This document shows, in pieces, positions 13,102 through 62,828 of a stretch of DNA of 64,000 nucleotides. The stretch comes from Lepidurus packardi. Its lineage: Eukaryota > Arthropoda > Branchiopoda > Notostraca > Triopsidae. The notes beneath the pieces were generated by a model. That model searched no databases and was not told the DNA's origin. It saw only the letters and a list, made by a program, of their open reading frames with translations. Numbering within the stretch: the stretch's first letter is position 1; every line of letters begins with the position of its first letter. The position numbers and the translations under genes were made by a program. Location: assembly GCA_023053545.1 (NCBI GenBank), contig JAKZAN010000004.1, forward strand, positions 372,001-436,000, in the 5' to 3' direction.

Positions 13102-13485
13102 CACGATTCTCATCAATTTTCGTTGATGAGAGTCGCTAAAATTTGAATTTTCTTTCACTCCACTAGCTGAAAAAAGAAGAATTCATTGTTGGCCAATGAC
13201 ACATTAGTGTCATGTTTGACCCAGGGACACTTTACGTACGTATGTAACTAAATCCGGAGAACGTGTTGAAGGAGTGGCTACAGAGTCGTATCCGGTCGTC
13301 TGTGGCAGCTCGTAGCGGAGATTTGTAGAGTGAGTCAAGGCGAGGTATTTGACTGTTGGTGTTTGACGAGTGATATTACAGTGGTTTCTTTGACAATTCC
13401 CAGGTGTTTTGCAAAGCCATTTACCAATGAAATAAATTAAAACTTTCCCCTCACAACACTTTCTTACACATGGAAAAAATCGTGC
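13102..13485. other. Convergent intergenic region
   Basis: Lies between the CUB and IR 3' ends. It includes an imperfect palindrome around CTCATCAATTTTCGTTGATGAG (about 13110-13131), which closes the dispersed repeat. No gene seen. Confidence 0.4.
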
Positions 13486-18837: not shown

Positions 18838-19018
18838 TGTAATGTAGCGACCGATGATAGATGGCGCCAGGGAATGGGAAAAGGAGGTTAGTTAAAAGTA
18901 CAATACAGGAGACTAACGAGCAGACCAAAAACACACTCTAGGATTATCTGATATATCGACCTTAATAACGGTCATCAGTGATCATTACAGCTGTGGTTAA
19001 ACACACGTAATCACTACA
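18838..19018 (+). repeat. 5' LTR (181 bp)
   Basis: TG...CA ends. Identical by eye to the 3' LTR and to the solo LTR at 31454-31634. It is short for a Ty3/gypsy LTR. Confidence 0.95.
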
Positions 19019-19088
19019 TTGGCGACGAGGTAAAAATATTGTTTTAAACAAACCGTGCATTCTACACTGATTACAGAGAGCATTCAGC

Positions 19089-23466: not shown

Positions 23467-25559
23467 GTCAAGTTCAAAAATGACGCCTGCAAAGGCAGCA
23501 ATAGCTACAATGGGACGTGCTTAACTTCCGCCGAATGTGCTACAGCTGGTGGAACTGCGGCTGGCTCTTGCGCCTCTGGATTTGGAGTTTGCTGCACCCG
23601 TAAGATACATTTTGAATTAAACTAACGCAGTCCAACGCTCAAATTTCCCATTTTAGTCATCATATCGAAATGCGGGCAAAGCACGTCGAGAAACTGCACG
23701 TATTTCACGAACCCCGGTGGTGTGGGTACAACGTATTCCACCGGCGGTCAATGTTCGATGACGGTCAAGAAATGCGATGCCAACGTTTGTCAATTGCGGG
23801 TGGACTTTATTTCGTTCAGTATCACACAGCCGACCAACAGCAGTAACAACCTTTGCCTTACGGACATATTCACGGTCAGCGGAGCTTCTAACAACATGCC
23901 AGCAATCTGCGGTGACAATGCTGGACAACATAGTAAGGAATTACTATACGTGTTTCTTATTATTCCAGTATTTTGCACGCAGTACTCGTTTAGTTCATGA
24001 TTTTTTAAAATAATTTTTAGTGTATCTTGATGCGACGACTAGTCAGGAAAGTTGGACTCTCAACTGTATGCTTTCCGGAAGTTCGTCTCGAACGTGGAAT
24101 TTGAAATTAACCCAGATTCCTTGCAACTCACGGCTTACAGGTGTGTAGACACGAATCCATTCATCTAATGACAACTAAATTTTGAATCATTCTGAATTAC
24201 GTTTTATTCATACAGCGCCGAGCGATTGCCTTCAATACTTCACGGAAGCCTCTGGGACGATTAAGAGCTATAATTTCGATTTTGTTCCTAATACCGATCC
24301 AGCGAGGCAGATTTCTAACCAAGACTACTCCATCTGCATCCGCAAAAACCAGGGGTTTTGTGGAATCTGCTACACCGCTTGTACGGATTCTGTGAATTCA
24401 GCTAACCCGGTCTCTTTTACCATCACTGAATCCATAGCGACCCGAAACTTTGCACGCAACGAACAAGCATTAGCGGTAGCTGCAGTAGCTGCAGTACCTG
24501 CGGTACCTTCCACCCCCCCCCCTGGTCCTAGCTATCCTATCGGTATTCCTGCCATTCCTGGCGTTCCTGCTGTTGCGGCCGTTCCGGGCATTCTTGGCGG
24601 TTGTGCCAAAGATTGGGTCTCGATTCCTTGCGGCACTGATCAAACTAATTCTGCATTACTATCAGTTGTCGGAGATTACACAACTCAGTGCGTTGACAAG
24701 TTTTGTGGGAGATTCTTCAACCCGATCAATGGCCTTGCTACCAATGCAGCTGTATACAGTAAACATTGTCACATTTTAGCTTAATTACAATCTTAAAGTG
24801 CTCCGTTTCCCTCGCAGGTTACCGGACTCCGTTCGAAATTCGCTACTACACCGACAGCACGGAAACTGACGATGCTGCTAACATTTGTTTCTGCCTCAAC
24901 TATGTTCAACAAGCCTGTACCTCGACCGGGTAATACGTACCAGCGATGAAAAGCCTTTGGCAGGATGATCACCCTTTTGAACCGCAATTTCTTTCACCTT
25001 TTGCACCTTTTAGACATGTAACCATTAATTTATTGTGTGCAAATTTGCGATTTCTTTTCCGCAAGATAAAATGTTACGATGCTATTCTGGCGTTTATCCA
25101 TGGACGACGTTTCCAAGCTCGTGTTTTAAAAAATATAATTCTAAGACCATTGCTACCAAGACTTCTGCAAAGAAATGTCGCGACGATGTAGGGTCGTTCA
25201 GCAATGGGTTAGAGAAGTCGCACGGAAACGGGACTACCAATGGCGGCTCTGCTTCTCCTGTAGATAATGCTACTCTGTCTTGCCAGTCTGAACCTTAAAA
25301 TCTATAAGAATACTGTAAAAGGGAAGAATCGTATCTTTATTAATGTTCTCAAAGCTCCCTAGATGTTTTCATTAATGTTCCCAAAGCTCCCTAGATGTCG
25401 TGTCTTGTATAGCTAAGGAGTGCAACAGGTTCTCCAGTTTCGGAAATCCGAGATAAAAATGACACTAGTGTGTATTATGGTTTCAAAACGTTCTCGGAAA
25501 ACGAATGACAAACGGGTGGTCACTCGAATTCAAAAATGGTAGTTGGATTGTAAATACAT

Positions 25560-25717
25560 TAGTTTAGGTTAGGTTAGGTTAAGTTAGGATAGGTTAGGTT
25601 AGGTTTAGGTTAGGTTAGTTTAGGTTTGATTAGGTTAGTTTAGGTTTGATTAGGTTAGGATATTAAGTTAGGTTAGCTTAGGTTAGGTTATTAAGTTAGG
25701 TTAGATTTGGTTAGCTT
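25560..25717. repeat. Interstitial TTAGG array, second copy
   Basis: Copy of 12944-13101 at offset 12,616 with no visible length change between copies, so the duplication is young compared with expected repeat instability. Confidence 0.85.
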
Positions 25718-26101
25718 CACGATTCTCATCAATTTTCGTTGATGAGAGTCGCTAAAATTTGAATTTTCTTTCACTCCACTAGCTGAAAAAAGAAGAATTC
25801 ATTGTTGGCCAATGACACATTAGTGTCATGTTTGACCCAGGGACACTTTACGTACGTATGTAACTAAATCCGGAGAACGTGTTGAAGGAGTGGCTACAGA
25901 GTCGTATCCGGTCGTCTGTGGCAGCTCGTAGCGGAGATTTGTAGAGTGAGTCAAGGCGAGGTATTTGACTGTTGGTGTTTGACGAGTGATATTACAGTGG
26001 TTTCTTTGACAATTCCCAGGTGTTTTGCAAAGCCATTTACCAATGAAATAAATTAAAACTTTCCCCTCACAACACTTTCTTACACATGGAAAAAATCGTG
26101 C

Positions 26102-29100
26102 TTAATTCGTCTGCTTGGCCAAACCATGTCTGAAGTGCTCAATCAAGAAGGCCAACGCCGATAAGCCAATTCCTAAGCCGAGTAAAGCAAAAGCAGTTTG
26201 CAATTGCGATACAGTGAGCACATCCACCACCGGGACCAAATTGGCGGGATTGAAACACGGGATGTTTGGAATGTACTTCTGGTTAAAGTACGTCAAGAGT
26301 CCACCTTCCATAGCCACCATCACCCTTTGTTATCGATTTTTTACCAAAGAATCTGCAACTGGTTTCGTTCGTTAAGTCATTCTCAAAAATTTACTTGGTC
26401 CTTAAGGCTTCGGTAAGAGCCGGTACGTGTTTGGACGTGTACCAACCCACCACATCCAAGCCTAGCCCCTCCTCCTTGGCCAAGGTCATGCGGCATTTAT
26501 GCTGCGTACGGAAATCCCTCAAAATGGCGGATTCCGCCATCGGCCTCCCCTTTCATTAACAAAGTAAAACTTATCTTCAAACCTTCTTTGAAATTAATGC
26601 AATGAAACGTATACGGTAATATAAGCATAGCCTCCTTCTAAAACCTTTTCTACGGCCTCGCTATCAAAATCCACCATTGTATCTGGGTTGTTCCGGTAGA
26701 TGTCGCCCATAGCTTTGGGAATTCCCGAGGTTGCCTCCTAAAAACATTTTTTTTTTAAGTTTTAAGATTATGCCGAAGCTAGTTTCTTAAGACAAAAAAA
26801 GGCAATAAATAGTATTACCAAGAAGTCGGTGGCGAAAATGTGTCCGCGATTCACTACCGGCTTTAGGCTTCGCTTGGAAATGAAATCCTGGAAAGTTTCA
26901 ATGAGCGGCTGAGCCACTGGGGCACTGATGAAGGAGATCAGAATCGAAGTGTAGGTGTAGACGATAATTACTGCAGCCAGATTCCAACCCGTGGTTACTA
27001 CCCGGCCGGGTAAATGTTTGGGGCTGAAACCGCCTAACGTTGTTGTTTTATTTTAACGTGGAAGACACATGGTCAAGTAATAAACGAGTTTAAATTAATT
27101 TTACCTTGGCCAGAAATGAGCGAAACGTTGTACAGAAGATCTAGACCGTAATCAGTTTCGTCCCCAAAGATCTTCGAGAAAATCCACATGGTACTGGCCA
27201 CAGCGACGGTACTGGCAACAATAACTAGCCATACCTTTGTGCCAATGTTCAAGATTCAAGACAGCAAATGACTGATTTGAAACTGTTATAGCTTAAGTGA
27301 TGAAATTTCTATTAATCAGATGTAAAAGATAAATTGCTAATGTATTACTAACAATATAAAGTAAATAAAGTGCTAGTAGTAATGAATATGATAGCTTATT
27401 GTCAAATTGAAGATTTGTTTTTACTTTTTTACGCAAGGTTTTCGCAAAACAATAACAAACACCAGCGCCATCTATGAGTATTTCGTATCGACAAGCTAAG
27501 GTATACGTCAGCCTTAAAAAAGTACGGTTTGGAAAGGGTTATACTTCTGGTTGGTAGGGTTTCGTGTTGGAGAGCACGTCGTACTGGATAGTAGGTGGCG
27601 GGATGACCACACCCCAGCGACCGTAGAACGTTGGCCAAACGATATCCAAAAAGGGCTGGTAGCGTCGCTCAAACACGAACGGGAAGATGGTAATGTCCAC
27701 TTGCTAAAATTATTTTGCTTTGGCGTTTACTATCATTCGATGTTTCGATATGTCAAAAAGCCGAAGTATGGAGCTTACGTGTGTTACTGCGTTCCCTACT
27801 AAGCCCTCGCCGGTACCGTTAACGACCACCGTACTGCCGAACGTCCCAGCCTCTGGTCTTATCACCGAGCTCCTTAATTCGGTATATTGTATTTTTCTTA
27901 TTTTTTTTTTTTTTTTTTAGATTTTTTTCTTTTTATTTACCTTAGATGGAGACTACTCATGAGACTATCAAAGAGTTCCATATTACTCCCACGCCAGCTG
28001 ACCAAAGTACCGTCTGCGGTGCGCTCGCTCGACACGAACGGGGGCATCTGGATTTAGAATTTGTAGAAATATATACAAAATTAGAAGAAGCTTAGGGGAA
28101 AACTTTTACTTCCAGAGATCCAACTAAGATATGCTGACGTTCCCAGTCTGACAGAGTACATCGACGGTCGATGTAACTGAACTGGTGAATTTGCGGAAGT
28201 ACGGTTCCATTATTTCGCCCAAGGCTGACTCTTCTACTGGCGTCTTTGTGCCAATCTTGTAGGATTCCCAGTAGAGCGGACTGTCCTGTAGCAATGGGTT
28301 GCGGGATGCGGAGATGGGTGACACAGGAAAGTGTGTTTAAGACCAGCAATCGCACCGTTCGCGAAGGGAAATTTTCTAAATGAAGTGGGTGCAGCAACGG
28401 AAATTTTCCTTGAGCAACAATGAAAAGCACGTCGCTGTGAGGCGGAGGGAAGTTTTTTAAAATCCCTATTTTTAAAAAATAAGAAATTACACAATTAATA
28501 TTAGATTTTTTTTATGAAGTAGGAGTCTCTTTCTATACTCAGTCGTTGATAAGGAATCATCGCACTGATGACTTCCGAATATCCATCTTGCAACTGCAAC
28601 TCCCGGACGGCCAACTCCATCACGTTTTTCTCACGCAGTTCCAATTTTGGAAGGTCAGGAGACAGAAATGCTACTGTTAACAAGTAAAAAAGACAACTAT
28701 TAAGGCTCCCGTATACCTTAGCTTGTTGATGCGAAACAGTCACAGATGGCGCTGGTTTGTTATTCTTTTGCTTCAGAAAAGTGCAAAATTCATGTTACTA
28801 CTTTATTACTCACTGGAAAAAAGGTCGACTGGTTGTGCACTAGCTGTTAGTATGCGCAAGTTTACCGTCAAAGAATTTTTTCAGTGTTCCGAAATTCCCT
28901 ATGATAACCGCCTACACCGAGTTAAGGCCATGGTGTACATCTTAGATCATATACACTATTGATAGGACACGGCTATGTGGACCATAGGATGTGGACGGCT
29001 GTGCTCGGCTTAACTTCAAACTCAGCCGCCATTGTTGTGGCCAAATCTAGGCGCGCTTTATGAAACTTTGCTAGAGAGACGCATGCCACATAATTCCTTT

Positions 29101-30069
29101 TGTCTTATAAGCTGATTCGTAGTATAAGCCAATTTGAAATTACTGTGAATAAGTTCAGACGGGAAAAAAATGGGCCGAACAAATCCTTTGACTTCGTTTT
29201 GGACTCCCTACAACCCTTTTCCATTGCCCAAGCAATCCTACGTTAGTTCATGGATACCTGTTCGAAATACTTATCTATAAAAAAAATATTAGACATAAAA
29301 AATAACGTTCATATGAAAGGCTATATTCTTCCCATTTTTCTCTCTTTTCTTATAACCTGGGAAGGAGCACTTTTGCACCATTGTTTCTCATGGAATCCTA
29401 CAAAAGCCGAACCATGGAAACGAAGATGATTATAAACAAAAATCGCCGTTGCTGTGGCCAAATCTACGACTGTGCCACCCTTTACTCCACAAACGTCGCA
29501 GTGTAGCCATGCCCTATCTATAGTATATATGATCTAAGGTGTACTTCAAGTAGTTGATCATGATTTGTCAGAAGGGGGCACTGATGTCATACCCGTTCTC
29601 AATGTAATTTCATAAGCTTCAAATATGTTTTTAAAATAAGCAGAAAGAGATCATTGAAAAACTATTTTTTTTTTTAAATGTCTTAATAGGAAAATCTAGT
29701 CCCGTCACTTCCTATATGATTTATTTGAAGTTTTAAAAATTTTACTCTAGATACAAAATTTATGGGAAAACGTATTAACAAAAGCTTACTAGTTGCACTA
29801 GGTAAATACATCCCATGCATTACTCTCACAATCTAATTTCATTATATTCCACAGATAATAAGAATGTTCGAATCCAAGTTGGCTACACAGCGCCACTAGA
29901 GGTTGGAGTACACCGTGGTCTTAAGGTATACAGGGGCCACAAATTCAATGCAGTATGGATGCTAGCTTAACCCAGTTAAAAATTGGATAAAAACAAATAG
30001 CTTACCTAAGGTTCTTCCTAAACTGTCCTGGGCTAGGAGCAGTACGACGAGACATTTCAATAGCCTCAT
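26102..30069 (-). CDS. Ionotropic receptor (IR family), copy 2, 594 aa
   Basis: Exons, 5' to 3': 30006-30069, 28539-28673, 28110-28465, 27941-28047, 27779-27896, 27545-27703, 27105-27234, 26819-27033, 26615-26737, 26395-26549, 26102-26324. The model is the 12,616-bp offset copy of the IR gene at 13486-17453, and no coding difference was noticed on reading. Phases and stop are preserved, so both copies should be functional. Recent duplication raises IR dosage without sequence divergence. It is divergent from the solo-LTR-bearing CUB copy 3. Confidence 0.85.
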
Positions 30070-31127
30070 CCCGGACGCCACGTTTAGTGATTGACTATAT
30101 AGGTAGTATTTGGGGCAGCTTGGCTTCTACTGGTCCGGGTAACTACAACAGCCACACCATTTATATACTCCCAATGTGCTGAGATTAGCTCATTTATTAA
30201 CCGGGCCTGTTATGTGCTAGTTGTCAGGAAATCGCCTGCGGGTAGGAGAACTCTCGGGATCTTCTGCTTAGTACTTAAAGTGGCATAATATCGTGCCTTA
30301 TACCTTACTCCGCCCTTCAAGTTATACAGCTTTGGACGCTCCCAGGCTCCCTATTAGAGGTGGATTTCAGTAAACACATTTCTAATGGATGTGATTTGGG
30401 GTTGGGCTTTAGATCCTACCGTTTTGATCAGTTACCTAAATTATTCACCTCTGCAAAATGCAAAACGGATTAGCGGGCCGCAAAGTATATCTACATCCTA
30501 CTAACGCCTTGGACTGAAAACATTCCAAGTCTGTAATTAAATGTTTTTTGTGGGTTTTTGGTGTAATGCGTAGCGTAGGCGGAATCCTTTTGTTAGTTTT
30601 TTACTGAACTTCCTGGGATTTATAGGAGCATAATTGTCAGGGCCTGCTCTTCCAAGAGGCTTGTGCAAGGTCCGGTATTTTTTTCCAACAGAAATGAATG
30701 AGCTTGGTTTGGTCCATGGTGAATTGGGGTTGTAAGTCATGGCTTCATTTGGAGAGTAAAGAGAAACGTTTAAATTGTACGTGCTTTTACTAAAATATTC
30801 ATAAAAATTACCTGAACTTTTTAAGTAAATTAATTTTGCTCCGAACTTTCGTAGTTTCACCCTTTTCTAAGTAAGCTTCACGTATTTTTACTTTTCATTT
30901 TTACGGTGTATGCAATTAGGGGACCGCTCAACGCATAAAAACTATAGGGTGAACCACAACTGTTATTTACCCGTTTACCGACTATAGGACTTTGCTCTAT
31001 GCCGACTAAACAGCAACCAACTTCCTAGATAAATGCGTTTTTACCATATGCAAAGAAAAAAGAAAACGCACAACTAGGTATTATAAAAGGAGTGTGGTAT
31101 CAGTCAGTCGGCACAAGTATCGCAGCC

Positions 31128-33102
31128 ATGGCAGTGGTAAGTTATGAGGAAGGTTTTTGTGAAAAGTCAAGATATTACGAGTTTTTAAACTTAATTTTAA
31201 AATGTACATTATTTTTTATTGCTTAGACTATGGAAAAGTTCATGTGGATTGTGGTGATCGTATGCCTGGAGGCCGTTTCAGCCGAGAACCGTGGCTGGGA
31301 ATCAGATCCGAATACGATTGGCAGAAATGTGACCTCTGACCTTCGTTCAGGCAAATGCAAGTGGGTGGTTTTTCGCAAAAAATTATGTTCTCATTTAGTT
31401 TGGTTTTAATTCGTTTTGATTTCGGCAGTCTTGTCATTGTTTTCCATCGTCAATGTAATGTAGCGACCGATGATAGATGGCGCCAGGGAATGGGAAAAGG
31501 AGGTTAGTTAAAAGTACAATACAGGAGACTAACGAGCAGACCAAAAACACACTCTAGGATTATCTGATATATCGACCTTAATAACGGTCATCAGTGATCA
31601 TTACAGCTGTGGTTAAACACACGTAATCACTACAGTCAAGTTCAAAAATGACGCCTGCAAAGGCAGCAATAGCTACAATGGGACGTGCTTAACTTCCGCC
31701 GAATGTGCTACAGCTGGTGGAACTGCGGCTGGCTCTTGCGCCTCTGGATTTGGAGTTTGCTGCACCCGTAAGATACATTTTGAATTAAACTAACGCAGTC
31801 CAACGCTCAAATTTCCCATTTTAGTCATCATATCGAAATGCGGGCAAAGCACGTCGAGAAACTGCACGTATTTCACGAACCCCGGTGGTGTGGGTACAAC
31901 GTATTCCACCGGCGGTCAATGTTCGATGACGGTCAAGAAATGCGATGCCAACGTTTGTCAATTGCGGGTGGACTTTATTTCGTTCAGTATCACACAGCCG
32001 ACCAACAGCAGTAACAACCTTTGCCTTACGGACATATTCACGGTCAGCGGAGCTTCTAACAACATGCCAGCAATCTGCGGTGACAATGCTGGACAACATA
32101 GTAAGGAATTACTATACGTGTTTCTTATTATTCCAGTATTTTGCACGCAGTACTCGTTTAGTTCATGATTTTTTAAAATAATTTTTAGTGTATCTTGATG
32201 CGACGACTAGTCAGGAAAGTTGGACTCTCAACTTTATGCTTTCCGGAAGTTCGTCTCGAACGTGGAATTTGAAATTAACCCAGATTCCTTGCGACTCACG
32301 GCTTACAGGTGTGTAGACACGAATCCATTCATCTAATGACAACTAAATTTTGAATCATTCTGAATTACGTTTTATTCATACAGCGCCGAGCGATTGCCTT
32401 CAATACTTCACGGAAGCCTCTGGGACGATTAAGAGCTATAATTTCGATTTTGTTCCTAATACCGATCCAGCGAGGCAGATTTCTAACCAAGACTACTCCA
32501 TCTGCATCCGCAAAAACCAGGGGTTTTGTGGAATCTGCTACACCGCTTGTACGGATTCTGTGAATTCAGCTAACCCGGTCTCTTTTACCATCACTGAATC
32601 CATAGCGACCCGAAACTTTGCACGCAACGAACAAGCATTAGCGGTAGCTGCAGTAGCTGCAGTACCTGCGGTACCTTCCACCCCCCCCCCCTGGTCCTAG
32701 CTATCCTATCGGTATTCCTGCCATTCCTGGCGTTCCTGCTGTTGCGGCCGTTCCGGGCATTCTTGGCGGTTGTGCCAAAGATTGGGTCTCGATTCCTTGC
32801 GGCACTGATCAAACTAATTCTGCATTACTATCAGTTGTCGGAGATTACACAACTCAGTGCGTTGACAAGTTTTGTGGGAGATTCTTCAACCCGATCAATG
32901 GCCTTGCTACCAATGCAGCTGTATACAGTAAACATTGTCACATTTTAGCTTAATTACAATCTTAAAGTGCTCCGTTTCCCTCGCAGGTTACCGGACTCCG
33001 TTCGAAATTCGCTACTACACCGACAGCACGGAAACTGACGATGCTGCTAACATTTGTTTCTGCCTCAACTATGTTCAACAAGCCTGTACCTCGACCGGGT
33101 AA
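31128..33102 (+). pseudogene. CUB-domain protein gene, copy 3, with solo LTR and frameshift
   Basis: Same seven exons as the intact copy, but exon 3 contains a 181-bp solo LTR plus 5-bp duplication (186 bp, a multiple of three). Although in frame, the LTR supplies an immediate TAG at 31461-31463. A second lesion is one extra C in the C-tract (11 instead of 10, about 32681-32691), which shifts frame and stops translation soon after. A TGT to TTT change near 32234 replaces a cysteine and CAA to CGA near 32292 changes an Asn to Asp. It has therefore decayed beyond copy 2. Confidence 0.85.
31454..31634 (+). repeat. Solo LTR of the Ty3/gypsy element
   Basis: A 181-bp sequence identical by eye to both LTRs of the complete element, flanked by GTCAA at 31449-31453 and 31635-31639. 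It sits at exactly the same base of CUB exon 3 as the complete copy. It is the product of LTR-LTR recombination after the insertion was duplicated, or of recombination between array units. Confidence 0.95.
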
Positions 33103-33406
33103 TACGTACCAGCGATGAAAAGCCTTTGGCAGGATGATCACCCTTTTGAACCGCAATTTCTTTCACCTTTTGCACCTTTTAGACATGTGACCATTAATTT
33201 ATTGTGTGCAAATTTGCGATTTCTTTTCCGCAAGATAAAATGTTACGATGCTATTCTGGCGTTTATCCATGGACGACGTTTCCAAGCTCGTGTTTTAAAA
33301 AATATAATTCTAAGACCATTGCTACCAAGACTTCTGCAAAGGAATGCCGCGATGATGTAGTGACTACCAATGGCGGCTCTGCTTCTCCTGTAGATAATGC
33401 TACTCT

Positions 33407-49395: not shown

Positions 49396-50541
49396 CCGTA
49401 GATAACTGGAGCAAGTTCAGTATTTTACCGGAGGTAATAGGGCTCGCCTCGGGGAAAGGTGGTATTAAATTGTAAGCTTCGCTTTTACTTTTGCCTATCC
49501 TGGAGTAGAATGACATGCCAACGTACGTTCACTCTTCCTTTCGTTATGAAGGCGTAACGCTATAAGAAGTAGTTCCGCTCAACCAAATAGTTGTTTAAAC
49601 GTTCTTGCAAATAATTTTCCATCAGGTTTGAAGACTGTGTTAGTAAGGTGCATGAGTTTGTTCGTGATTTCAAACACGAAGTGGTAAAACTTCACAGTGC
49701 ATTGACTGCGTTGCCACCGTGTGTGCTAAGTAATTTCATTAGAAGCTTCAACTTTTTGAAAACTGAAAGCTCAAGTGTCAAATATGATAACACTGGCTTT
49801 GAAGATTCAAACACAACTTTTGCTTTGCAGGATGATTGCCGTTCGAGGCTTCTTTCGTGAACTTGCAATGATTAAGAAATACGTGACAATAGAACACAAC
49901 ATCTGAACGACAACATTTATTGAAAGTATTACTCAAACTATAGAATACATGAACACTTTTCCTTCCTGGGTGCCAAATTTTGCTGCAAATTTGAAACATG
50001 TTATAGACAGTAATTTCTACATCCATGTCAAGGATTTGCTTACGGAACTATTGAAGATGCGAGTCTTCCAAATTGTACTGACTTGATGGTTTTTTTTTGC
50101 CATTTTTTTGTCAGTGTTATTTTGACACCCACTTTCCCAAGCCTGCACGTTGTGAAATTGCAATATTATCCTATATCTGCCACCAATTAGTCACATCCGC
50201 ACGCCGTTGAACTACTTGTCTCCAAGACAATGGATTGATATACATTTTCTGCGTTTATACAATGCAAATAGCATTTTCATTTGAGTTAATGGTAGTGCCA
50301 CACGATTATTTGTTATGGAAGCTTGATAGCATCATAAACCTGCTTATAACCACACAGTTATGTAATGTACTTAAAATGAATGAGATGTAATACTACTCAA
50401 CACCCGTTTCTTTCAAATTGAAAAGAAAAAATCGAAAGGAATAGACATTGAATCGTATATAGGTTTCGTTGTTGATTGTTTTTCCGATCAATTCTTTGAA
50501 ACACATTGTTACAGGTAAAAAATAACTTTCGTAACAGGTAG
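49396..50541. other. Intergenic region
   Basis: Short open frames only. No domain or RNA gene recognised. Confidence 0.4.
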
Positions 50542-50925
50542 TGTTACGGACAAGTCCGTAAGCCCGGTACGTCGACAATGTTGTTAGCGTCTCAACCGCT
50601 TTCCCACGCAACCGAACAGACACTAGCCGTAGGCCCCCCTATACCTGCACATAAGTATAAGGGATTGCGAAACCACCCCCTTTTTTTTTACTGCTAAACT
50701 GAAGCGAAAGGAACAGTTCCTTTGCTAGAGTGCAGTCAGATAGTTGAGTTGGAAGAGTGGCTTTAGTTTGTTCCTCACAATCAGTTTTCTGTTATATCTA
50801 ATCACCGTTGGACAGCGACGTTCTGTATCAAATCGTTATGTATGTGATCGAATCGTATGTATGTGATTAATAAAGTGTTCATCGATCAAGAACCGAACCC
50901 CAGTGTGACTGAGAGCTAGGCAACA
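50542..50925 (+). repeat. Probable solo LTR of a second retrotransposon family
   Basis: Starts TGTTACGGAC and ends CTAGGCAACA, is 384 bp long, contains an AATAAA signal (about 50869), and is flanked by GGTAG (50537-50541) and AGTAG (50926-50930), an imperfect 5-bp duplication. There is no internal coding region. The TGTT...AACA ends are typical of BEL or Copia LTRs. A second copy elsewhere would be needed to prove it. Confidence 0.5.
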
Positions 50926-51830
50926 AGTAGCTTCGGCTAAAAGATGATACTAGCAAGTCAAATCACAGTGTAGGTCTCGTCAATTAACTGAATAACAGAG
51001 TCATGTGTCAAGGTTGTTGTATACAAGTCGTTTGTCCTTCCGGGGCAGTCCTGAACCACATAAACTCAGTATCGACATTTTTCGATCAAAAAATTAAAAA
51101 CACATTTATGCAAAAATAACATAAAGGAGAACTATAAAGGTACACATTATAATTGCAGTCCACGTTCAGTATTATATTATAATTCTGTACGTCCAAATGT
51201 GTTAAGCTTATTCTGTTTTGAAAATTATTGGTAAGATAGTTCATAGTTTGTTAAATAAGCACGAGCTCCTGCAATCAAGTATCTGGTAAAATTAAAGTTT
51301 AATATTAATATAAATCAGAGTAACGGATTACAAGTAAACCATGAAAGAATTTCTGTTACTCTTTTATTACTTCAACCAAGATTGAGGCATGATGATGTAA
51401 TCATTGCATAACGACTCACCCAGACTAATACATCTGCTTACTACATAACATGAAAACATCCCAATAAAACGATAAAAATGGATTGTTGTTGCTGTCTGTT
51501 TAACCATCAAATTCCTAGAAGGACAGCGGTATATGCGATTAAAACATCAATCAAATAGCTGTGCTTCGCCTATAAAAAACTCCACAACTGATGAACCCAA
51601 GCGTTGAACACATGGCAACGCCATTCTAATCTATAATTCACGGCCTTTTACTATTAATCACGCTTAGTTACTGTTAGTAAAGTAATTAAAGTAATTTCTG
51701 GGATAAACAAGCTTATTTATTGCTTCACTATTCCGTGGCTCAGCCCCTGTTAAAAAAAGAATAACGCAGAGCGAGCCGGGACTTTGGTTACTATGTTCAG
51801 GGGCGTGGCCACTCGTCCTTATGCGTCCCC
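50926..51830. other. Upstream region of Kazal gene 1
   Basis: From about 51405 onward it is homologous to 59368-59885 upstream of the second Kazal gene (CGACTCACCCAGAC, CTACATAACA, TCAATCAAATAG, ACTGATGAAC). The duplicated unit thus included about 450-500 bp of promoter region. No other gene seen. Confidence 0.6.
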
Positions 51831-51838
51831 TATATAAG
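51831..51838 (+). promoter_or_regulatory. TATA box, Kazal gene 1
   Basis: CGTCCCCTATATAAGGCA is shared with the second gene (59878-59895). A start at about 51860-51870 is likely, and ATG follows at 51920. Confidence 0.65.
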
Positions 51839-52202
51839 GCACGTTTAGCCGCCCAAAAAGCTCCATTACAGACTCCTTTATTTGATAGAAACAAGTCAAA
51901 ATATCACTGGATAAGAATCATGAAAGCGTGGTTTGCAATTATCACGACGCTAGGATGCCTGTCGATAATTACTAAAGAAAGCCAAGGCAGAATCGCACAT
52001 CGTGGTCATCCTTGCGCCCAGAGGTGCCGATCCCCCCCTGAGCCCAAGAGGAGTTCCCCCCCCCAGTCTGAGAATCCCCCCCCCCCCCTAAATGTTGCGA
52101 TTCATTTGAAATGAATTACAGGGTTGAAAAAATGTTTAAAATTAGAAAAAGGAAGAATAACTAGTTTTATTCATCTTGGATAAGAGTATGCGTAAAAAGT
52201 TG

Positions 52203-55200
52203 TTACGAAGAATTACCAAGGATCTCTAGCAAATATTTCGATGACAGGGCAAACCGATTAATGATTTCATCGTTGGAGATGCTGGAGACAATATCAGATT
52301 CTGATGCCGTTATCATGCAATTAGCCATCCAGGTATCGAGCATCGTGCTTCGTAATTTGTTTTTAATTATCTTTTGTTTGCTTAAAGCCCTTTCAGCTGA
52401 GCAACTGGTGACCGCTAAGCTCACCAAAATGTTGTATAGGTTTGTTAAATTCGGGAATCCAGACAACTGGTTAACCAACCGAAATGGTTTTATGAAGCCT
52501 TTCTTGACCCACAATCCAACGAACGCATCTTGTTTCAGTTCTGAGACAGAGCTGCCTTCATTGGACAGAGTTTCTTCATCGACGTTGACTTCACCTTTCT
52601 CAGCTTCAACTTCACTTTCCGAGTCCTCAATATCATCCGACTTCGTAGGTTCCTTAAAATTAGTTTGCCTTCCCCGACAAACCGACGTGACTGGAAGTCC
52701 CCGCTTCTTCCGTTTCTTTGGCAGAAGGTCGTCAACAGAGATCTCTTCTTGAATAGATTGATACACGTTACGAAAGTCGCGATACTCGATCGCAACATCA
52801 ACCGGGTTCAGTCCATAATACTCGCATAATGTTGCGACGCAGGTTTGAGTGACTAGGTTTTCCTTCATAAGACTCTCGTGCGTTAGGAGACTAGCTTCAC
52901 GGATTATCTTCGTGTTTTCATCTGAGAATCTGTCTTCAATCTGGACTAGAAGCAGGTCGATAGCTCGAAAGAAGACTACGGTTTTCAACTTGCGAAAGGG
53001 ATCTTCAATCACTTCATCCAAGCCAAGCTCGTCGAAAAACTTCTTCACCCTCGGAATTCGTTTGCTCTGAGGAAACTCAATACGGTGCTTTTCTGCAAAC
53101 GACCGTATTTCAAGTTTAATCTTTTCCCACTCCTCATCGCATCGCATACTTCTCAACTTATGGATTGCACCGTCAATAACCCCAGTCATTGATCCTAGAG
53201 GAAAATTTGCATCACGTTAAATGTAATGGGTCATAAGGAAAGACTAACACTTATAGAAATTAGCTATTGTACTGTAATGATATTATGTAATGTATTTTAG
53301 CGATTGTACTGTAATTGTACGATAGGACTTACCAAGATCTACCACAACTCCTTGCAGAATTTTAGTGACGGGTTGAAGGATTTCGAATAGCTTGCAGGCC
53401 AGAGCCAGGACTCCAACAGTTTCGAACTTTCCTAATTGTATTCTCAGGCCGGCGGCTTGTGAAATGCTTTCCTTGGACAAAGAATCATCTTTGGAAATGA
53501 CTTCCAGGCAATCCAGGGTTTCTTCAAAGCATACTAGCAGTGTAGAGCACGCGTCATGTTTAATACTCCATGTGGTAGTCTGCACTCGTTTCAGTCTTCG
53601 CCGTCTGTTTGAAGGTCCAAGTGATTTCAGGAAAATATCGTGACGTCTGTGACCGTTCATGAAACCGTAGAGCTCTTCCAGCAGAGAAAAAAAATTGCGC
53701 AGCATCTGACATTCCTCGACAGCTTTTTCCACGACCAGGGCGAAACGATGAGCGCTACACCAAACATATAAAGCCTGAGGGCTCTGCTGAAGCATCAGAG
53801 TCTTCAGGCCTTGTCTGCAACCCCTCATGTTACCGGCTCCGTCGTAACTTTGCGCGATTATATTGCAATGTTCAATACCCATTGAACGGAGAGATCCGTT
53901 AACTCTTTCAAAGAGTTCAACACCTGACGTTGTACCAGTTGTAAAAACATCGATCAGTCGCTCCACGGGCCTTGCTTTTTCCAAGTTACTTGGGTCAATC
54001 TCAGCGTATCTAACTAATACAGCGACGGCTTCCAGCTTACTTGTATCTTGAGTTCCATCAACAATTAAGGACACTTTGTTTCCTCCTGCTGCGATCCGCT
54101 TGCCTATCTCTTCTTTTACAGCATTCCGAAGAAGGGTCATCAAATTCATAATGGTTTGGTAACCAAGGAAGTTCACGGGACCAAGCCGGCGTTCTTCGGC
54201 TCGCGCTTTCTTAAGTTTTTCGATGTATAGCTGAGCATCAGTATTATACTTGGCAATCATCATAAACAAGTTAACTAGCTTGCCTTTTGTACAATCAGAC
54301 TTGCGAAAAGCTAGCATTTCGCTGCTGAGGTAACGGCAACAATCGATGACGACGGAAAGAACTGCGCGATTGTGGCGAGTAATTTCCTTTTGAGCAACTA
54401 ACAGATTTCGATTTATCTTATTTTTGCCGCTAAACCAACGAATTTTTGCGATTTCACATTCTTGGTGGCCGGTGCTCCGTTCATGAGTGTTCACATTACG
54501 AGCGGCATTCTTCCAGTCGCTGTACCCATCTTTATAAAACAAATCCTTTTGACCGGGCAAGGAGAATATAAGGCAAAAAATGCAGTAAATACAACCAGTG
54601 CTTTTACTATACACAATCCATCCACGATCTTTAGGTGGGCCATTGGGTACATTTGTTACCCTCCATGATGCTCGAGGAAAGTCTGAGATAGGAGGCGCCA
54701 TATCTTTGACATGGTTTAAAAGTAGGTTAATTGTTTCCGAGGTAAGTTTCTGGCCAACGAAATTTGCAGGGTCCATCTCTGGAACAGCTAATTCCGGTAA
54801 TTCTTCATAATCGTCAACCAAAGCATCAAGTTCTGCATGACTATAATCTTGACTAGTACCAGCAACAGGATCAGACTCGCTGTCATCCTATTAAAAAAAT
54901 ACCGTTTTTTTCTCTTTCTACCGGCGTAGGCTCGCGCGTATTGCAGTTCAAAACCGTTTATTAACATATGGGTGATAGTCCATTTATGGCGCCATACCTG
55001 TGTCTGTGTCTGGCTTTGAATAGAAGGTGAAGTCGATTCATTGTCTGTCTGCCACTGGTGTGTGTCATTTTGACTGCTGGAGGTCGATGGTTGCGGATCA
55101 CGTGTCGGTGTTTCACTTGACCCGACTGCCGCTGCAGCAGTACTAGCAGTCAGGGTGACAGGGTTGCCAAAGAAATTTCGAAGGCTCTTTGATGGTTGAG

Positions 55201-55965
55201 TTTCAGTAGTAGTTGCTTCTTGGCTACTCAAAGAATTACAAAGAAAATAATTAATGCACAGGGCAGACAAAATTATAGCTATTACTCTGACCTATAATGG
55301 CTATAGGATACCTAACACTTTTATGGTCAAACAGGAAACATATCAGGTCATCGCACGAAATTCGTTCGATATTTAACAATATCTTTGTGTCTCTAATGAT
55401 ATGAGAAGTAAAATTTAATAAGTATCGAAGAGACTTTTTTAAATATTGCATGATAAATTCGTAAATAGGAACGAGTTTTTGTTTCTAAAATAATTCACAA
55501 ACTGGGCTTCGAAGTGCACTGTTTTTTTAAATGAATTTAAAAGAAAATACCATTACAATCCGACTACTAGTTTTTGATGTATGACTTGATAATTTTTTCG
55601 TGCTGAAAGCCTTCTCTTTAAAGCATACTAGCCATAGGTATCCCGTAGCCTTAAACGGCATATTTTTTGAGTCAATATTGGGTAGTAACAAATTATAATT
55701 ATTAAATTAAATTAAATCAAATTAAATTAAGTAACTATTTGGTAATAACAAAAAATAAGTGGAGAATTAATTAAGGAAAATAGATACTTTACCTTATTCC
55801 AGAAGGACTTGGACGTTTACCCTTCAGAATTCTTCTCACTTCGATGTTGTTGAGGTACTCATATTTGTGCTTTTCTCGAAGGTGAGAAAGCCATTTGTCT
55901 TTCCGCACGCTAAAACCACATCCAGTCCCTTGACATCGATAATATTCCGAATGTCCTTTAGGCAT
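52203..55965 (-). CDS. hAT transposase with zinc fingers, 982 aa
   Basis: Four exons, 5' to 3': 55793-55965, 54998-55226, 53333-54887, 52203-53194. They total 2,949 nt with consistent phases and no internal stop. The N-terminus (from MPKGHSEYY) has a C2H2-like finger (CQGTGCGFS...LSHLREKH). A TTF/ZMYM-type zinc domain follows (GWIVYSK...CIYCIFCLIF, ending HERSTGHQEC). The DDE/RNase-H-like core has VDGTQDTSK and SYDGAGNMRG, as in DUF4371/ZMYM1-type hAT proteins. The C-terminal hAT dimerisation region is LVSLAVTSCSAERALSKQKIIK. It would cut and rejoin the element through its TIRs in the nucleus. The intact frame implies recent activity. Confidence 0.85.
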
Positions 55966-56399
55966 ATTAATAGCGTTACAGGGCTCGTAAAGAGAATTAA
56001 TTGAGTTTGTAGTGTCGACCGTCCCAAGAAGTGAGTTTTCTGCCTTGTGACTTCACGGTTCGCTCGCTTGAGTGCGACGCCCTACTGTTTACTTTTGCAG
56101 TGGCGTCATTTTGAAGAGCGGCAAATGGGTTAAAAACCCATATGAGTTTAGCTATGAGATGTAAGCCCAATTTTTTTCCTTAAAACTGCTGTAAGCTTTT
56201 CATTGCAACAATTTGGACCATAGGGTGCAAATACAGCCTCGACACCTCGCAACATACAGCAACTGTAAATATGGCTCACTGTTAAAAAACTTCTGCGATT
56301 TGTGGAGAAAAACGTCAACGAAAAACGGGTAAACGAAAGTGCAGTGTTTTCTTCTCACTTTTTTCCGACTGCAGCACCCTCCCAAGAACAGCAGTTTCC

Positions 56400-56560
56400 G
56401 AACTGCACTTTTAGAAGTCGTCGAGCTTCTAAAAGTGAACCTTCGAATCTCAGTTTTAGAAGCAGTCTGGCTTCTAAAATTGCAGTTTGAAATCTTCACT
56501 TTTTGAAGTCATTGGTCTTTTAAAAGTGCACTTCGGAAACTCCACTTCTAGAAAACTCGG
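56400..56560. repeat. Ladder of short hairpins inside the hAT element
   Basis: Successive palindromes: CACTTTTAGAAG/CTTCTAAAAGTG (56406-56437), TTTTAGAAG/CTTCTAAAA (56454-56479) and CACTTTTTGAAG/CTTTTAAAAGTG (about 56497-56528), each with an 8-bp loop, then further CACTTCTAGAAA. Spacing is about 45 bp. It lies between the two coding regions. Confidence 0.8.
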
Positions 56561-56796
56561 GCTTCAATAACGTAAACCTTAATGTGCAGTAAGTGAAATT
56601 CATTTATTTCTTTTTTTGTCATTTTGTGTTGCAAACAACAAAACAAAAAACAATAACAAACAACAAAAAATAAGCTTAATTACAAATGAACCATAAACGT
56701 AAAAATACAAACGTACAAAACGTACAACGATGTTTTACGAACATTAGAAACTACGAAACATTAGAACAACGAACATTAGAAACTCCAGGCGGATGA

Positions 56797-57274
56797 CTAC
56801 GGACTTTCGAGACATGCTTTTGCCTCTGTGAGGAAGGGCAAGAACCATACCAGCGAAACGCACATTTGCGTTTCCTTATCTTCAAATCCGAGGCATTCCG
56901 ATTGTAGAAATAATAGAGTTGGCTTCACGTAAAAGGAGTATTTTATGTCAAAGACGTAATACGCCGCCATCAATACTGTTACTGCTTCTGCTGAGCTATT
57001 ACCGATGTAGATGGGTTCACTCCCATCCACAACTACTGATAAGTCGGATCCCACTGCAATTATAAAAGGTGGGCCCCTTTTTATTTCGGAAACTGAATCA
57101 AGCAGGTTTGCGGATTCCTTTCAAAAAGAGAAAACAATGTTACACAGACTTCTCAACCAAAAAAACGTTCAGTTACCTCTCGTATGTCAAATAAATGTCT
57201 CCATACGTTCCTATCCTTCTTTTGCCCCATGAGCATGCGACGAAGAATTTCCAAAACAAGGCGAGAAGCCACTT
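56797..57274 (-). CDS. Second coding region of the hAT element (accessory protein, partial)
   Basis: Two exons (57177-57274 and 56797-57117) join in phase 0 and end at TAA/TAG before 56797. The translation reads LEILRRMLMGQKKDRNVWRH, then a Val/Gly-rich stretch (IAVGSDLSVVVDG), then AAYYVFDIKYS with LLFLQSECLG, and stops after ACLESP. Similar helical 'YVFxIxYP...LxFLQ' proteins accompany many arthropod transposons, but I cannot name a domain. The 5' exons are uncertain; an ATG frame at about 57460-57370 (MVDENKLVF) might contribute. Same strand as, and upstream of, the transposase. Confidence 0.5.
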
Positions 57275-57706
57275 CTAAAATTGGAGTTGGTGATGAATGC
57301 TAGTTAATTTTTTTCTAACTTGAACTACCTGATTCATTGTCGAACTACTTATGCTTTATTTAACTTCGAATTCGTCCGTCTCCTCGGAAATTGCATGGTC
57401 TAACTCGACAAAAACTAGCTTGTTCTCGTCTACCATTTTCCGTACTTTTAGGCACGCAGGGTTTTTCTAACTCTGTCAAAACTATACAAATATATTCAAT
57501 CTATATTTAATAAGATTAATAAATTTAAAGATATTTACAGAAACAAGTGTAAAACGGGTCAAACACGGGTCTTCAAAACGCCTTTCGCAGCAACAGTGAA
57601 AAATGTGTCCTGGTTTTCCCCCCGAACAACCGGTGTGCAACGTTGCCACACCTATGTAACTATTATGTTACAACTTCACTAGAAATGACAACAAACTTAT
57701 CAAATG

Positions 57707-57886
<180 letters not shown>

Positions 57887-57929
57887 CATAAAAAAGAGAG
57901 TAAAAAAGCTAAAAAGTAAGCAAAACAAA

Positions 57930-58170
57930 GTAACCACGGTTTTTTCCTATGTGCGCATTAGGAAACAAGCACTGCAGAAAAGTGTAAAACGGAACTGCTA
58001 AAAGTGCAGCCTTTTCCTCTCTTTTCCCCCGTAGCCGCATTCTGAAGCAGGCACTGCAGAAGGTGAAAACTGGAGCTGCCAAAAGTGCAGCTTTTTCCTC
58101 TCTCTTTTTTCCCATGTGCGCTTTATGAAGCAGGCATTGCAGAAAGTGCAGCTTGTATGCAGCAAGTGAA
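57930..58170. repeat. Tandem repeat, unit about 90 bp, inside the hAT element
   Basis: Three units sharing GCAGGCACTGCAGAA, AACTGGAGCTGC, AAAAGTGCAGC-TTTTCCTCTC and TTTTCCC-TGTGCGC. Coding potential is not supported. Confidence 0.8.
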
Positions 58171-58436
58171 GCACTTTAAGTAGCGGTTTTCGGACCCCTT
58201 TTTAACAGTGCTTCATCGGACTACGTTCGAACTTTGTATGCAAAGAAAAACGCAACTATTATTTAAAAAAAAAACACTTGTATTTATTTAAGATTTCAAT
58301 ATGAAATTTTGCTTGGGGGACATGTGAGTTTCAAGGGGGGGATATGGAGTTTCAAGGGGGGGTGGGCATGGGAGTTTCGGGGGGGGGGGGTCATATGCAT
58401 TTTTTTGGAAATTTGCTTGTTGCCTATGCTCACAAG

Positions 58437-58606
58437 CAGGGCCGTAGCCAGGATTGGGGGGGGGGGGGGGTTGAAAGCTTTGGAGGGGGTTTTCAATATG
58501 CAATCTTATTGGGCGTTTACTATTCGCATATCCTTACCATTATAAAATACAAATTTCGGGGGGGGGGGGGCGGCTTAAAAGACCCTCCCCCCTGGCTACG
58601 GCCCTG
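58437..58606. mobile_element. Nested hAT MITE, 170 bp
   Basis: Begins CAGGGCCGTAGCCAGG and ends CCTGGCTACGGCCCTG, perfect inverted ends of a widespread hAT type, with an exact 8-bp duplication CTCACAAG on both sides (58429-58436 and 58607-58614). Internal G-runs follow each TIR. It is inserted into the larger hAT element and is therefore younger than it. Confidence 0.95.
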
Positions 58607-59367
58607 CTCACAAGTATAAACTTAACATCTCAGGCGCAGTTTAAACCCTTCCCCCCCCCTGTATTCGGCGGTATCCCCCCCCCCCCCCGCCAAGTGGCCA
58701 AGAGGAGTAACTCCTCATGACCCCCCCCCCCCCCCATCAGCACCACTGCTTGCGCCTGCCCAAGGAATTATGATCCCGTATGTGCTATTGACGGCATTAC
58801 GTACGCCAACCGTTGTACTATGGCATGTGCGGGTAAGGCAGCGAAGGATGATTTTTATTCCCTTAGAAGCTTTGCCCGTCAATCGGTAAACATCTATATT
58901 TATTGCCAGGAGTCTCACAACGTCAGCATGGGCCATGCGATGGAGGTGACGACCCCTGGTAAACGCTCCGGGTACTTTATCCTACCAGCTAAATCTGCTC
59001 AGTTGTTTGTGTTCAAGTCAAATTTTGCGAATATTGTAGTTAACTATAATGTTGTGTAAAACTGTTTTTACATTAAAAATATATGTTGAACTGGTTTTAC
59101 AATTTATTTATGACCTGATGTCGACCAAGCACGTGCCAAAGCAGCAGTGATACATGCAAGGTGCGTGAACCTCAACTCACGATGTACTGTACAACAACTC
59201 ATTTTTTGGCAAGTGTATTGTACGTTTTGAAAGTGGAACCGAGCACAACAAAAATAGTTTCGGAAATAAAATAGTCTGGAGAAATGCACTGAGTAAAAAT
59301 ACATTTGATTTATTTCCAAATCTCGAGCGCTCTTAGTGAATATTTTAGACATGATCGTTTGCATAAC

Positions 59368-59885
59368 GACTCACCCAGACCAACAGCTCAGATTACTACA
59401 TAACACGCATGTCATAGGAAACGAAACTTTCTAAAAGTGATTGCCTAATGCTCTTGTATTAGGCAACATGAAACGAAACAGATGTAAACAAGGACTGTGT
59501 ATGGTGTTGGAAAAAACGATTAAAAAATCCCAACCAGACGATTGAAAATTCCATTTTGTTCCTCTCCATTTAACCCTCAAACCCCCAGAAGACCAGCGGT
59601 TAGGTGCGTACAAGCGTCAATCAAATAGATTCAGTTTGTATAAAAAAACTATTCAATTGATGAACACAACCGTCGAAGACATGGCCACGCAATTCTCATT
59701 TGTAATTCGTGACCTTCTACTAGCCATCCCGTTCAATTACTGTTGGTGGACCAAGTAATATTCCAAGATAGACAAACTTTTTGTTGTTTCACTATTTCAC
59801 GGTTGATTTCCTGTAAACAAAACAACGCAGATAGCCAAGCTGGACTTGGGTTACTATGTCCAAGGACGCGTCCTTATTCGTCCCC
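59368..59885. repeat. Duplicated upstream region of Kazal gene 2
   Basis: Homologous, with substitutions and indels, to 51405-51830. It shows the two Kazal genes arose by a tandem duplication that predates the hAT insertion in gene 1. Confidence 0.7.
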
Positions 59886-59893
59886 TATATAAG
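59886..59893 (+). promoter_or_regulatory. TATA box, Kazal gene 2
   Basis: TATATAAG within CGTCCCCTATATAAGGCA, equivalent to 51831-51838, about 90 bp before the ATG at 59977. Confidence 0.65.
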
Positions 59894-59976
59894 GCATGTT
59901 TAGCCCTCCAGGAAGCGTCATTACAGGCTCATGTCTTTGCTAAAATTAAGTAAACAATTATCACTGGGTAAGAAAC

Positions 59977-60277
59977 ATGCAAGCGTGGCTTGCAATTATT
60001 ACGACGCTAGTATGCCTATCGACAATTACTCCAGAAAGCCAAGGCAGAGTCTTACATCACGGGCGTCATTGTACCTGCCCAAAGCATATAGATCGCGTGT
60101 GTGGTGTTAATGGCGTTACGTACGATAACAGTTGTATAATGGCATGTGCAGGTAAGTGCTGTAAAGGATTATTTTTATTCCCCCAAACGACCAGTCAATC
60201 ATTTGCTAAATGTATATTTATTTACAGAAGTCCCAAAACGTCACCAAGGTTCATGCGATGGAGAAGACCTCCAGTGA
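59977..60277 (+). CDS. Kazal-type secreted protein 2, intact, 74 aa
   Basis: Two exons, 59977-60151 and 60228-60277 (TGA 60275-60277), split by a 76-bp phase-1 intron. Residues 1-23 are a signal peptide (MQAWLAIITTLVCLST...). One Kazal domain follows with six cysteines: HCTCPKHIDRVCGVNGVTYD, then SCIMAC, then QGSC. It would be a secreted serine-protease inhibitor or related binding protein; the target is unknown. An unspliced reading would extend to 60408, but the splice sites (GGTAAGT donor, TTTACAG acceptor) complete the Kazal fold and so are preferred. The TATA promoter is shared with gene 1. Confidence 0.85.
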
Positions 60278-61190
60278 ACGATCCGAGTACTACATCATCC
60301 CAGCTAAATCCGATCAGTCTTTTTTTTTTTTTTTTGGCCAACGGCCATACCACGCAGAATGTAAAGTACCCAGACTCGTCGGTTTTTTGTGTTCCAGTCA
60401 AATTTTGAGAACAATGCAAGTTACCTGTAGTTTGGGTTAAAACTTTTTTATAGAAAAATATAGGTGGAACTGTTTTTATAATGTATTTGTATTTATGACC
60501 TGATATGATATTGTCGCGCTCTTTTTTCGCAATCGATACAGTTTAGCAGTAAGGACACCTCGTCAACTGACGAATTACACGATAAAGCCGCAGGAGTACA
60601 CATTCGATGCGGGAACCTCCAAATAGGATAACGATGAGCCATTTTTAACTGTATAAGAAATATTAAATCTAAGCAGCGACTTTGTAATTTAGTTGTCTAG
60701 AAAATAATGCCTCTATGAAGAGTACCCTCATTGGTTAATGAATTGCAAAGTGAAAGCGAAGTGCGTAGCAACCACAGTCCCGCATAGCTTAGCTTGACGC
60801 CCCCAAGCTACCACAAGATGGCGCGCAGTGCTTTGAATGGGGTTGTCTATGAACGCGTATTGCTCCTGCACATAAAACGGCACATAGGATAACACTATAG
60901 CTAAGTACTCAATTTAGTTTAACTTTTACTTTAAAATCATTATAATAAGGACAGGGCAGTTTCCGAATTGTCAGTTTGGCTTTTTTTTCGCATACACAAA
61001 AAATTTGATTGCTTTTTTCAAATTTAAAAAGGCAAATATAAAGAAATTAGTATTGTCTGGCATTCCTTATTAATATTACCCACATGACTATACAAAATGT
61101 ATATAAGAATGTTGTGAATGAAAGTGCCTCTGGCTTCCCATGCTATTGTGTGATTGACAATATGAGCATACCCGATAAACGTTGCAGCAA
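60278..61190. other. Downstream of Kazal gene 2
   Basis: The 3' flank (to about 60505) is homologous to 58963-59130 after Kazal gene 1, apart from a poly-T insertion near 60320. Beyond it no gene is recognised. Confidence 0.5.
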
Positions 61191-62828
61191 TTAAATTAAA
61201 GTAGAATTTCCAGTGCAAGCGGGGGATGTGTCCTGATTATCGAACTGCACAATGATAATGAAGTACGTGGCAACTGCTCCAACAACCTAAAACACTCCCT
61301 TTTAGTGATATAATTTCTTAAGAAAAATCAATAAAGAGACAATCGAATCTTACTGTTGGAAGAATTTTCCTACCAATCGCAAACATTCCGCAGCCAGTAA
61401 TTTCCGCGTCAACGCTCAAAACTTGGTTGCGAAACCAATGAAGCTTTTTGTGGCCACGACAGAGAAATGCATCCAATATTTTAAAAAAATAACTTGAGAT
61501 TTATATAGTTCACAGCATTTACCTTGAGACCATCCTCAGCACTCAAATCATGAAGCAGCAATTCCTCAACTTTTAGCTTAGTGTCTTTGACCTTAGAACT
61601 GGAGATTTAGTCCAAGTTATAAAGGAAAATCGAATCCGTTAAACTCACAGCGTCAGTAAGCCAATCCGCTGCCCAAATAACTAATAGGAAACTCATAGAA
61701 TCTTGGCTGAAATTCAGCAGAAGAGTGATAGTCTTAACAATCCACGAAAAGTCTTGACAAAGGGTCTGGTTTTGCAGAATTTCTGAGAAGCGTAAGTAAA
61801 GTGTATGCGATCCACCTATGAGATTCGTCAGCCGACAGGTCATGAAAAGTAGGAGAGGGAAGCTAAAGTAGGCATCAACTGCTTGGGCCGCCTTCTTTAG
61901 CTTAATTGTGACTTCCTGCAAGTTTCTGATTCGCATAGAATAGGAGAGAGAACCGAACTTGTTCTCTTGCCTCAGGCCTCCAAGTTGGGTATCTTGGATT
62001 CGTACCGTATCAGTATCGAGGACCTGGTTAATCTTCGATCTGAAGTGAGCAAATTGATGACCAACAGTTTGGCAGATTACTAGCAATTGCACAGGGACTA
62101 GCCAAGACGCAGATAGGTTATACATCAGCATTAGTAAGTTCAGCGTACGCCTCAGGAAAAGATGGGATGTCCCAAAAATTAAACTCCAGCGAACGATGTC
62201 TTTATTAGGGTTGTAATACTTGCACAACACTAAGAATAACTATTTTTTAAAAATAAAGAAAGAGAAAAAGAAAAAATCTGAACACATTAAGAACTGAGAA
62301 TAAGAAGAAGCTCAAGTTATTCTTTCTCACCGAAGTTGCATTAAACAGGCCAACGGGAATAAACGTCAGGTACGAGAGCTTCAACTTGTTCAAATTTGGA
62401 CCCAGCAAATCACTTGAAGCCGATAGATAGTTAAGAGCTGATTTTAGGGATGTAATGTTCCATAAAGTTAAGCGAGGTACAACAATCGAGGAGCATAGAA
62501 AGCTTAGGTTGTCTAGCATGGCAACTACCTTCGTAGTAGGACTATCAGGGAGAAAGAATATGATAAAGGCAGTATCCACTAAGTCTGCACACTGAAAAGC
62601 TAAGGTAATAAGCCAGAGAAAGGTCAAAATGGAGAACCCAGTAAAGAGAAGTTCGAAATCCTTCCCATTCTGAATTACCTGAACAGGTAAGAGGCCTGAC
62701 CAGATGGTAATGCTCAAGAATTTCTGGATATTAATTACTGAACTACTACCGATACTGGGTTCGGGTGATATGTTAGGAGGACAAAAACTTTCCACTTTAG
62801 TTTGCCTAACTTGTTTCAGACAATCCAT
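61191..62828 (-). CDS. Gustatory receptor (Gr family), 447 aa
   Basis: Five exons, 5' to 3': 62331-62828, 61649-62239, 61523-61591, 61354-61443, 61191-61286, all phase 0 (1,344 nt). The final exon has TYFIIIVQF, an exact match to the Gr signature TYxxxxxQF. Hydrophobic helices precede it and the third-last helix region ends AAQAVDAYFSFPLLLF. Intron positions match the Gr at 46.7 kb, with an extra split near residue 365. Reading through the 79-bp intron 61444-61522 instead would meet a stop, so splicing is required. Ligand unknown. Confidence 0.85.

Follow-up and report, generated by a model that had tools for sequence, protein, structure and literature searches.

A composite hAT insertion, most likely a null allele, in a duplicated Kazal gene of Lepidurus packardi

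The stretch of DNA analysed here (the window) is 64,000 nucleotides of Lepidurus packardi contig JAKZAN010000004.1, called C3 below, and corresponds to C3:372001-436000 of a 108.6-Mb assembly in 344 contigs. It carries a Kazal protease-inhibitor gene, K1, whose first exon is interrupted by a hAT transposon that itself contains other elements. We regard it as highly probable that this is a hAT insertion into a duplicated Kazal gene, most likely a null allele. Defective relatives of the transposon seem to have been recently mobile, and the insertion is an ordinary kind of event. The features that define the gene and the insertion are, in window coordinates:

51920-52018, plus strand: K1 exon 1, first part (codons 1-33, through the first Kazal cysteine)
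52011-52018, plus strand: target-site duplication CTTGCGCC, left copy, an exact 8 bp abutting the element end
52019-58748: composite hAT insertion, a hAT of ~4.8 kb plus a nested 1,934-bp element
52019-52031, plus strand: left terminal inverted repeat CAGAGGTGCCGAT
58736-58748, minus strand: right terminal inverted repeat CAGTGGTGCTGAT
58749-58756, plus strand: target-site duplication CTTGCGCC, right copy, an exact 8 bp abutting the element end
58757-58832, plus strand: K1 exon 1, second part (codon 34 onwards)
58910-58962, plus strand: K1 exon 2 (sixth cysteine and stop)
59977-60277, plus strand: K2, an intact neighbouring Kazal gene (exons 59977-60151 and 60228-60277)

An earlier note on this DNA had described a hAT insertion with an exact 8-bp duplication, and the ends bear this out: CTTGCGCC lies at both ends of the element, and the probability that 8/8 bases agree by chance, the ends being fixed, is 1.5e-5. 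The same 8-mer occurs 5 times in the window, where 1.43 occurrences would be expected, and the other three matches all fall inside a recent 8,168-bp repeat, which explains them. The terminal inverted repeats agree at 11/13 positions.

When the flanks are joined at one copy of the duplication, the three coding segments of K1 give an open frame of 75 codons plus a stop, just as had been claimed, and the product matches Pfam Kazal_1 with an E of 8.7e-11. The alignment places in it the six cysteines of a Kazal domain, and the right half of the gene is the top of 37 Kazal matches across the assembly. The break falls after codon 33, between Kazal cysteines 1 and 2, and the note's placement of it at the first Kazal cysteine is borne out. 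Neither half has a stop or a frameshift, and all six cysteines are kept. Read through into the element, the left half yields 64 residues and then a stop, with the first Kazal cysteine only, and a null effect on K1 is the most likely consequence.

Further evidence comes from an unoccupied counterpart of the site. Searches of the assembly with the flanks found a paralogous block at C3:1.401-1.409 Mb, ~1 Mb from K1, where the left flank (51753-52018) aligns to C3:1401817-1402082 at 91% and the right flank (58749-59296) to C3:1402075-1402589 at 86%. Within C3:1401817-1402589 the overlap between the two matches consists of the 8 duplicated bases and no more, and the paralogue, K1', is therefore an empty site, with one copy of CTTGCGCC and the same reading frame as the joined K1. 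Both flanks run collinear with K1' through the join, which, together with the exactness of the duplication, speaks against an assembly chimera in which a transposon was joined to unrelated flanks, an error to which the G and C homopolymers and the (AT)88 tract in the element, as well as a near-identical 8-kb repeat elsewhere in the window, might otherwise point and which we consider extremely improbable. As a separate observation, K1' (C3:1401984-1402289) has an additional cysteine beside the fourth (YANCCTMEC).

The neighbouring gene K2 also has a paralogue, K2'. The K1/K1' pair has a synonymous divergence (dS) of 0.084 and the K2/K2' pair one of 0.086, with 4 synonymous differences in each, and these values are consistent with both pairs having arisen from one duplication of a two-gene block. 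The ratio of nonsynonymous to synonymous divergence (dN/dS) is 1.16 for K1/K1' as compared with 0.34 for K2/K2' (Fisher p = 0.21), and at sites where K2 and K2' are identical there are 9 derived changes in K1 and 10 in K1'. We considered dN/dS as a sign of decay and rejected it: because the derived changes split evenly and the Fisher test gives the p value above, no decay of K1 after the insertion is detectable. Relaxed constraint on K1 preceding the insertion is not established.

The insert had been taken for one 6,730-bp element. Its ends and duplication stand as given, but its unity does not, as it is a composite with three components, namely the hAT, a CACTG-ended element nested in it and a miniature inverted-repeat transposable element (MITE) of older date:

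56277-58210: nested CACTG...CAGTG element, 1,934 bp, with a CT 2-bp duplication, 311 bp upstream of the transposase ATG
57709-57884: (AT)88 microsatellite within the nested CACTG-ended element
58437-58606: 170-bp hAT-type MITE with CAGGGCCGTAGCC ends and the 8-bp duplication CTCACAAG at 58429-58436 and 58607-58614

A single 6.7-kb element is ruled out by the eight other hAT copies found in the assembly, none of which has the 1,934-bp insert; in all eight, the matches to 56276 and from 58210 join with a 3-base overlap. The nested element, present in the window copy only, begins CACTGTTAAAAA, ends TTTTTAACAGTG and is flanked by CT. CMC-type elements have CACTR ends and a duplication of 2-4 bp, and the CACTG ends and CT duplication seen here agree with that class. 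Relatives of the nested element lie at many further loci; a scan for end pairs covered 22/30 of these relative loci, of which 15 yielded end pairs (two of them two each) and 7 none, and the 2-bp duplication is present in 12/17 of the end pairs listed. Its 107-aa open frame (56797-57120, minus strand), the sole frame scanned, had no Pfam match, and autonomous partners were not sought. The 170-bp MITE is complete in 7/8 of the other family copies, and the eighth (C2) has lost part of it; its presence in these copies makes it older.

Nine members of the hAT family were found in the assembly, with searches by left end, right end and transposase exon 4 in agreement, and this count, like the other copy counts here, is a lower bound (at least nine hAT members). 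A search with the end pattern returned the same nine and two further matches with 2 mismatches. Alone, the hAT measures ~4.8 kb, three uninterrupted copies being 4764, 4766 and 4769 bp long. The 8-bp duplication is exact in 5/9 copies (window, C16a, C16b, C6 and C2), matches at 7/8 bp in C4 and C5 and is missing in C16c; C1 is rearranged, and C2 has a single base change in its right end. The inverted repeats of hAT elements begin CAG, and the family has such CAG-starting short inverted repeats along with the 8-bp duplication and a hAT dimerisation region. The last of these lies in a predicted transposase gene, whose exons are:

55793-55965, minus strand: transposase exon 1, starting at the ATG and modelled on open frames and GT-AG sites
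54998-55223, minus strand: transposase exon 2, placed in the same way
53333-54887, minus strand: transposase exon 3, DUF4371-like, below the Pfam cut-off
52203-53194, minus strand: transposase exon 4, with the hAT dimerisation region; minus-strand AATAAA at 52166-52171

Joined across GT-AG introns, these four minus-strand exons would encode 981 codons (coding sequence of 2,946 nt), all of them open in the window copy, which upholds the proposal of a full-length transposase frame. The Pfam family Dimer_Tnp_hAT (PF05699) matches exon 4 at 23.6 bits and the whole protein at 21.9, the cut-off being 21.4. Three stretches starting at residues 407, 478 and 916 resemble the catalytic D, D and E motifs, the one at 916 resembling the last of them. 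Exons 3 and 4 also have more remote matches elsewhere in the genome, at 21-41% identity. Among the nine copies found, only that of the window has an uninterrupted transposase frame: in C16a and C16b codon 880 is a stop, ahead of the stretch at 916; C16c and C2 are frameshifted, C2 with an additional stop at 357; C6 is interrupted and C1 rearranged; and C4 and C5 lack 53295-55141 through a shared internal deletion. Because no other uninterrupted frame was found in the assembly, the window copy or an unseen relative would be the likely source of enzyme for the family, and the window transposase may possibly be active at present.

Recent movement is suggested by C16a and C16b, which have 0 differences at 4760 aligned sites (10 gap positions) and yet sit in unrelated surroundings, their 1.4-kb flanks having no mutual similarity and their 8-bp duplications being different. 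Since both have the same stop, at least one of them was presumably moved by transposase supplied in trans. The deletion shared by C4 and C5 is an older event; the two have a common junction with a 5-bp filler differing at one base, and they differ at 51/2898 sites. As for the window copy, a comparison of five copies gives it 8 private substitutions in ~4.2 kb, which sets a maximum for the time it has spent at the K1 site. Set beside the dS of 0.084, this number makes the insertion far younger than the K1/K1' split. It also means that fewer than one change is expected in the 228-bp K1 coding sequence, so the intact halves of K1 are uninformative on whether the gene is dead, less than one substitution being expected either way. 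The earlier note had looked to additional lesions in the halves as a refutation of a reversible gene; none are seen, but for the same reason the check has little power to refute that reading.

According to that reading, K1 is an on/off allele, germ-line or somatic excision restoring the gene often and both states being present in populations. We think this unlikely, even though the transposase frame is open in the window copy, its defective relatives seem recently mobile and the frame is kept when the flanks join at one duplication copy. Losses of hAT-Ac elements have been recorded in Daphnia magna mutation-accumulation lines, with 3 losses at a mean of 5.9e-5 per copy per generation and an interval from 0, and the source states the mechanism of most losses to be unknown (PMC8594854). 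For K1, however, the assembly contains a single version of the site and no empty allele, the flank searches having returned the window site, the paralogues and two short repeat matches to the right flank. The protein collection likewise had no candidate for the joined K1 protein, and the spliced form of a two-exon gene may not be in that collection. Moreover, small insertions or deletions are typical after hAT excision, being common among excision products of TcBuster in human cells (PMC3499496) and of Ds in Candida (PMC5873905). If all 8 extra bases were kept, the frame would shift; to preserve it, the net change must be a multiple of three. The nested element, in addition, puts a further 1.9 kb between the transposase and the terminal region. 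One may speculate that repair templated by K1' or by an empty allele could bring the gene back with no footprint.

K1 could also be expressed if the insertion were spliced out as an intron by way of possible splice sites in its two ends:

52024-58740, plus strand: hypothetical intron, by inference only, with donor CAGAG/GTGCCG in the left inverted repeat and, in the right end, an acceptor with a C-tract, ATCAG/CACCACTG

Splicing between these sites would retain 21 nt, of which the element contributes 13 and the duplication 8; it would keep the frame, add QSTTACA and give an open conceptual product of 82 aa. The acceptor has 14/15 pyrimidines, a value reached by 3/646 AG sites in 50000-61600, and PMC9860276 describes an introner that retains 4 bp and an 8-bp duplication and thereby adds four residues. 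The donor, by contrast, is weak: it scores 66.5, which is reached by 92/648 GT sites, and five inferred donors nearby score 81-100. Besides this, the intron would span 6.7 kb, the product would gain an extra cysteine in its Kazal domain, and 1/3 of random site pairs would be in frame in any case. We consider splicing of the insertion to be very unlikely. It is just as doubtful that the family's ends are built for it, with 5 nt from the left, 8 nt from the right and the 8-bp duplication making up a 21-nt remnant that would be frame-safe at any exonic site in this orientation, K1 being expressed with seven extra residues. If it were true, K1 would be expressed although the gene looks destroyed.

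Our preferred explanation is that K1, a duplicated gene, is most likely present here as a young null allele. A hAT entered exon 1 of this Kazal protease-inhibitor gene by cut-and-paste, duplicating 8 bp; translation of the left half would run into the element and end early, as described above, most likely leaving a null allele; and the CACTG-ended element is now nested just upstream of the hAT transposase. Several points weigh against this explanation. The loss of K1 function and the exon model of the transposase are both deduced from sequence, and cryptic splicing could rescue some K1 product. The DUF4371 match scores 26.1 against a cut-off of 32.1, and the transposase promoter may have lost strength through the nested insertion. 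As 49 kb of the same contig separate C16a from C16b, their identity could be due to gene conversion instead of recent movement, and a single assembly may collapse identical copies or hold homopolymer errors. K1 would provide a clean, roughly datable natural knock-out in a duplicate pair with the empty paralogue as reference, and the broken gene hosts the only coding-complete member of the family found in the assembly. If the insertion segregates, one could measure both hAT excision footprints and what the loss of one Kazal paralogue costs. The halves of K1 should not be annotated as separate genes.

Elsewhere in the window, the 8,168-bp block occurs twice, at 10851-19018 and 23467-31634, with one mismatch (99.99%), its start occurs again at 31635-33360 (99.65%), and the stretch 8803-10855 is repeated at 16795-18837 and 29411-31453 (98%). 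These repeats are duplications of very recent date or else an artefact of the assembly. Between the two copies of the block, 19071-23138 is an LTR-type retroelement with a single unbroken frame of 1,355 aa (reverse transcriptase, RNase H and integrase). Within the duplicated block there are imperfect TTAGG arrays of ~32 units (76% matches) at 12943-13098 and 25559-25714, which resemble arthropod telomere repeats. Among the window's genes, one encodes an insect-type cuticle protein above the Pfam cut-off, and two chemosensory-receptor matches fall slightly below it; like the TTAGG arrays, these point to an arthropod host.

In its 8-bp duplications, CAG-type short inverted repeats and dimerisation region, the K1 insertion is like the known hAT elements (Ac/Ds, Hermes and Buster), and its family likewise includes full-length and internally deleted members. 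Unlike known hATs, the family is low-copy and the window copy carries nested elements; the closest relative of its transposase in the protein collection, among 8 matches, has 41% identity over 83% of the query. The nested element shares CACTG ends and a 2-bp duplication with the CMC type (CACTA/Mirage/Chapaev) but differs in that no transposase was recognised in the one frame scanned. With introners and with spliced Ds insertions the K1 element would share possible splice sites at its ends and a codon-preserving scar, although its donor is weak. The joined K1 itself has the C-x-C spacing and six cysteines of Kazal inhibitors and is similar to rhodniin (E 3.3e-11) and to leech-derived tryptase inhibitor C (E 6.7e-9), from which it differs in being a single-domain protein with a signal-like N-terminus, encoded in a duplicated gene block.

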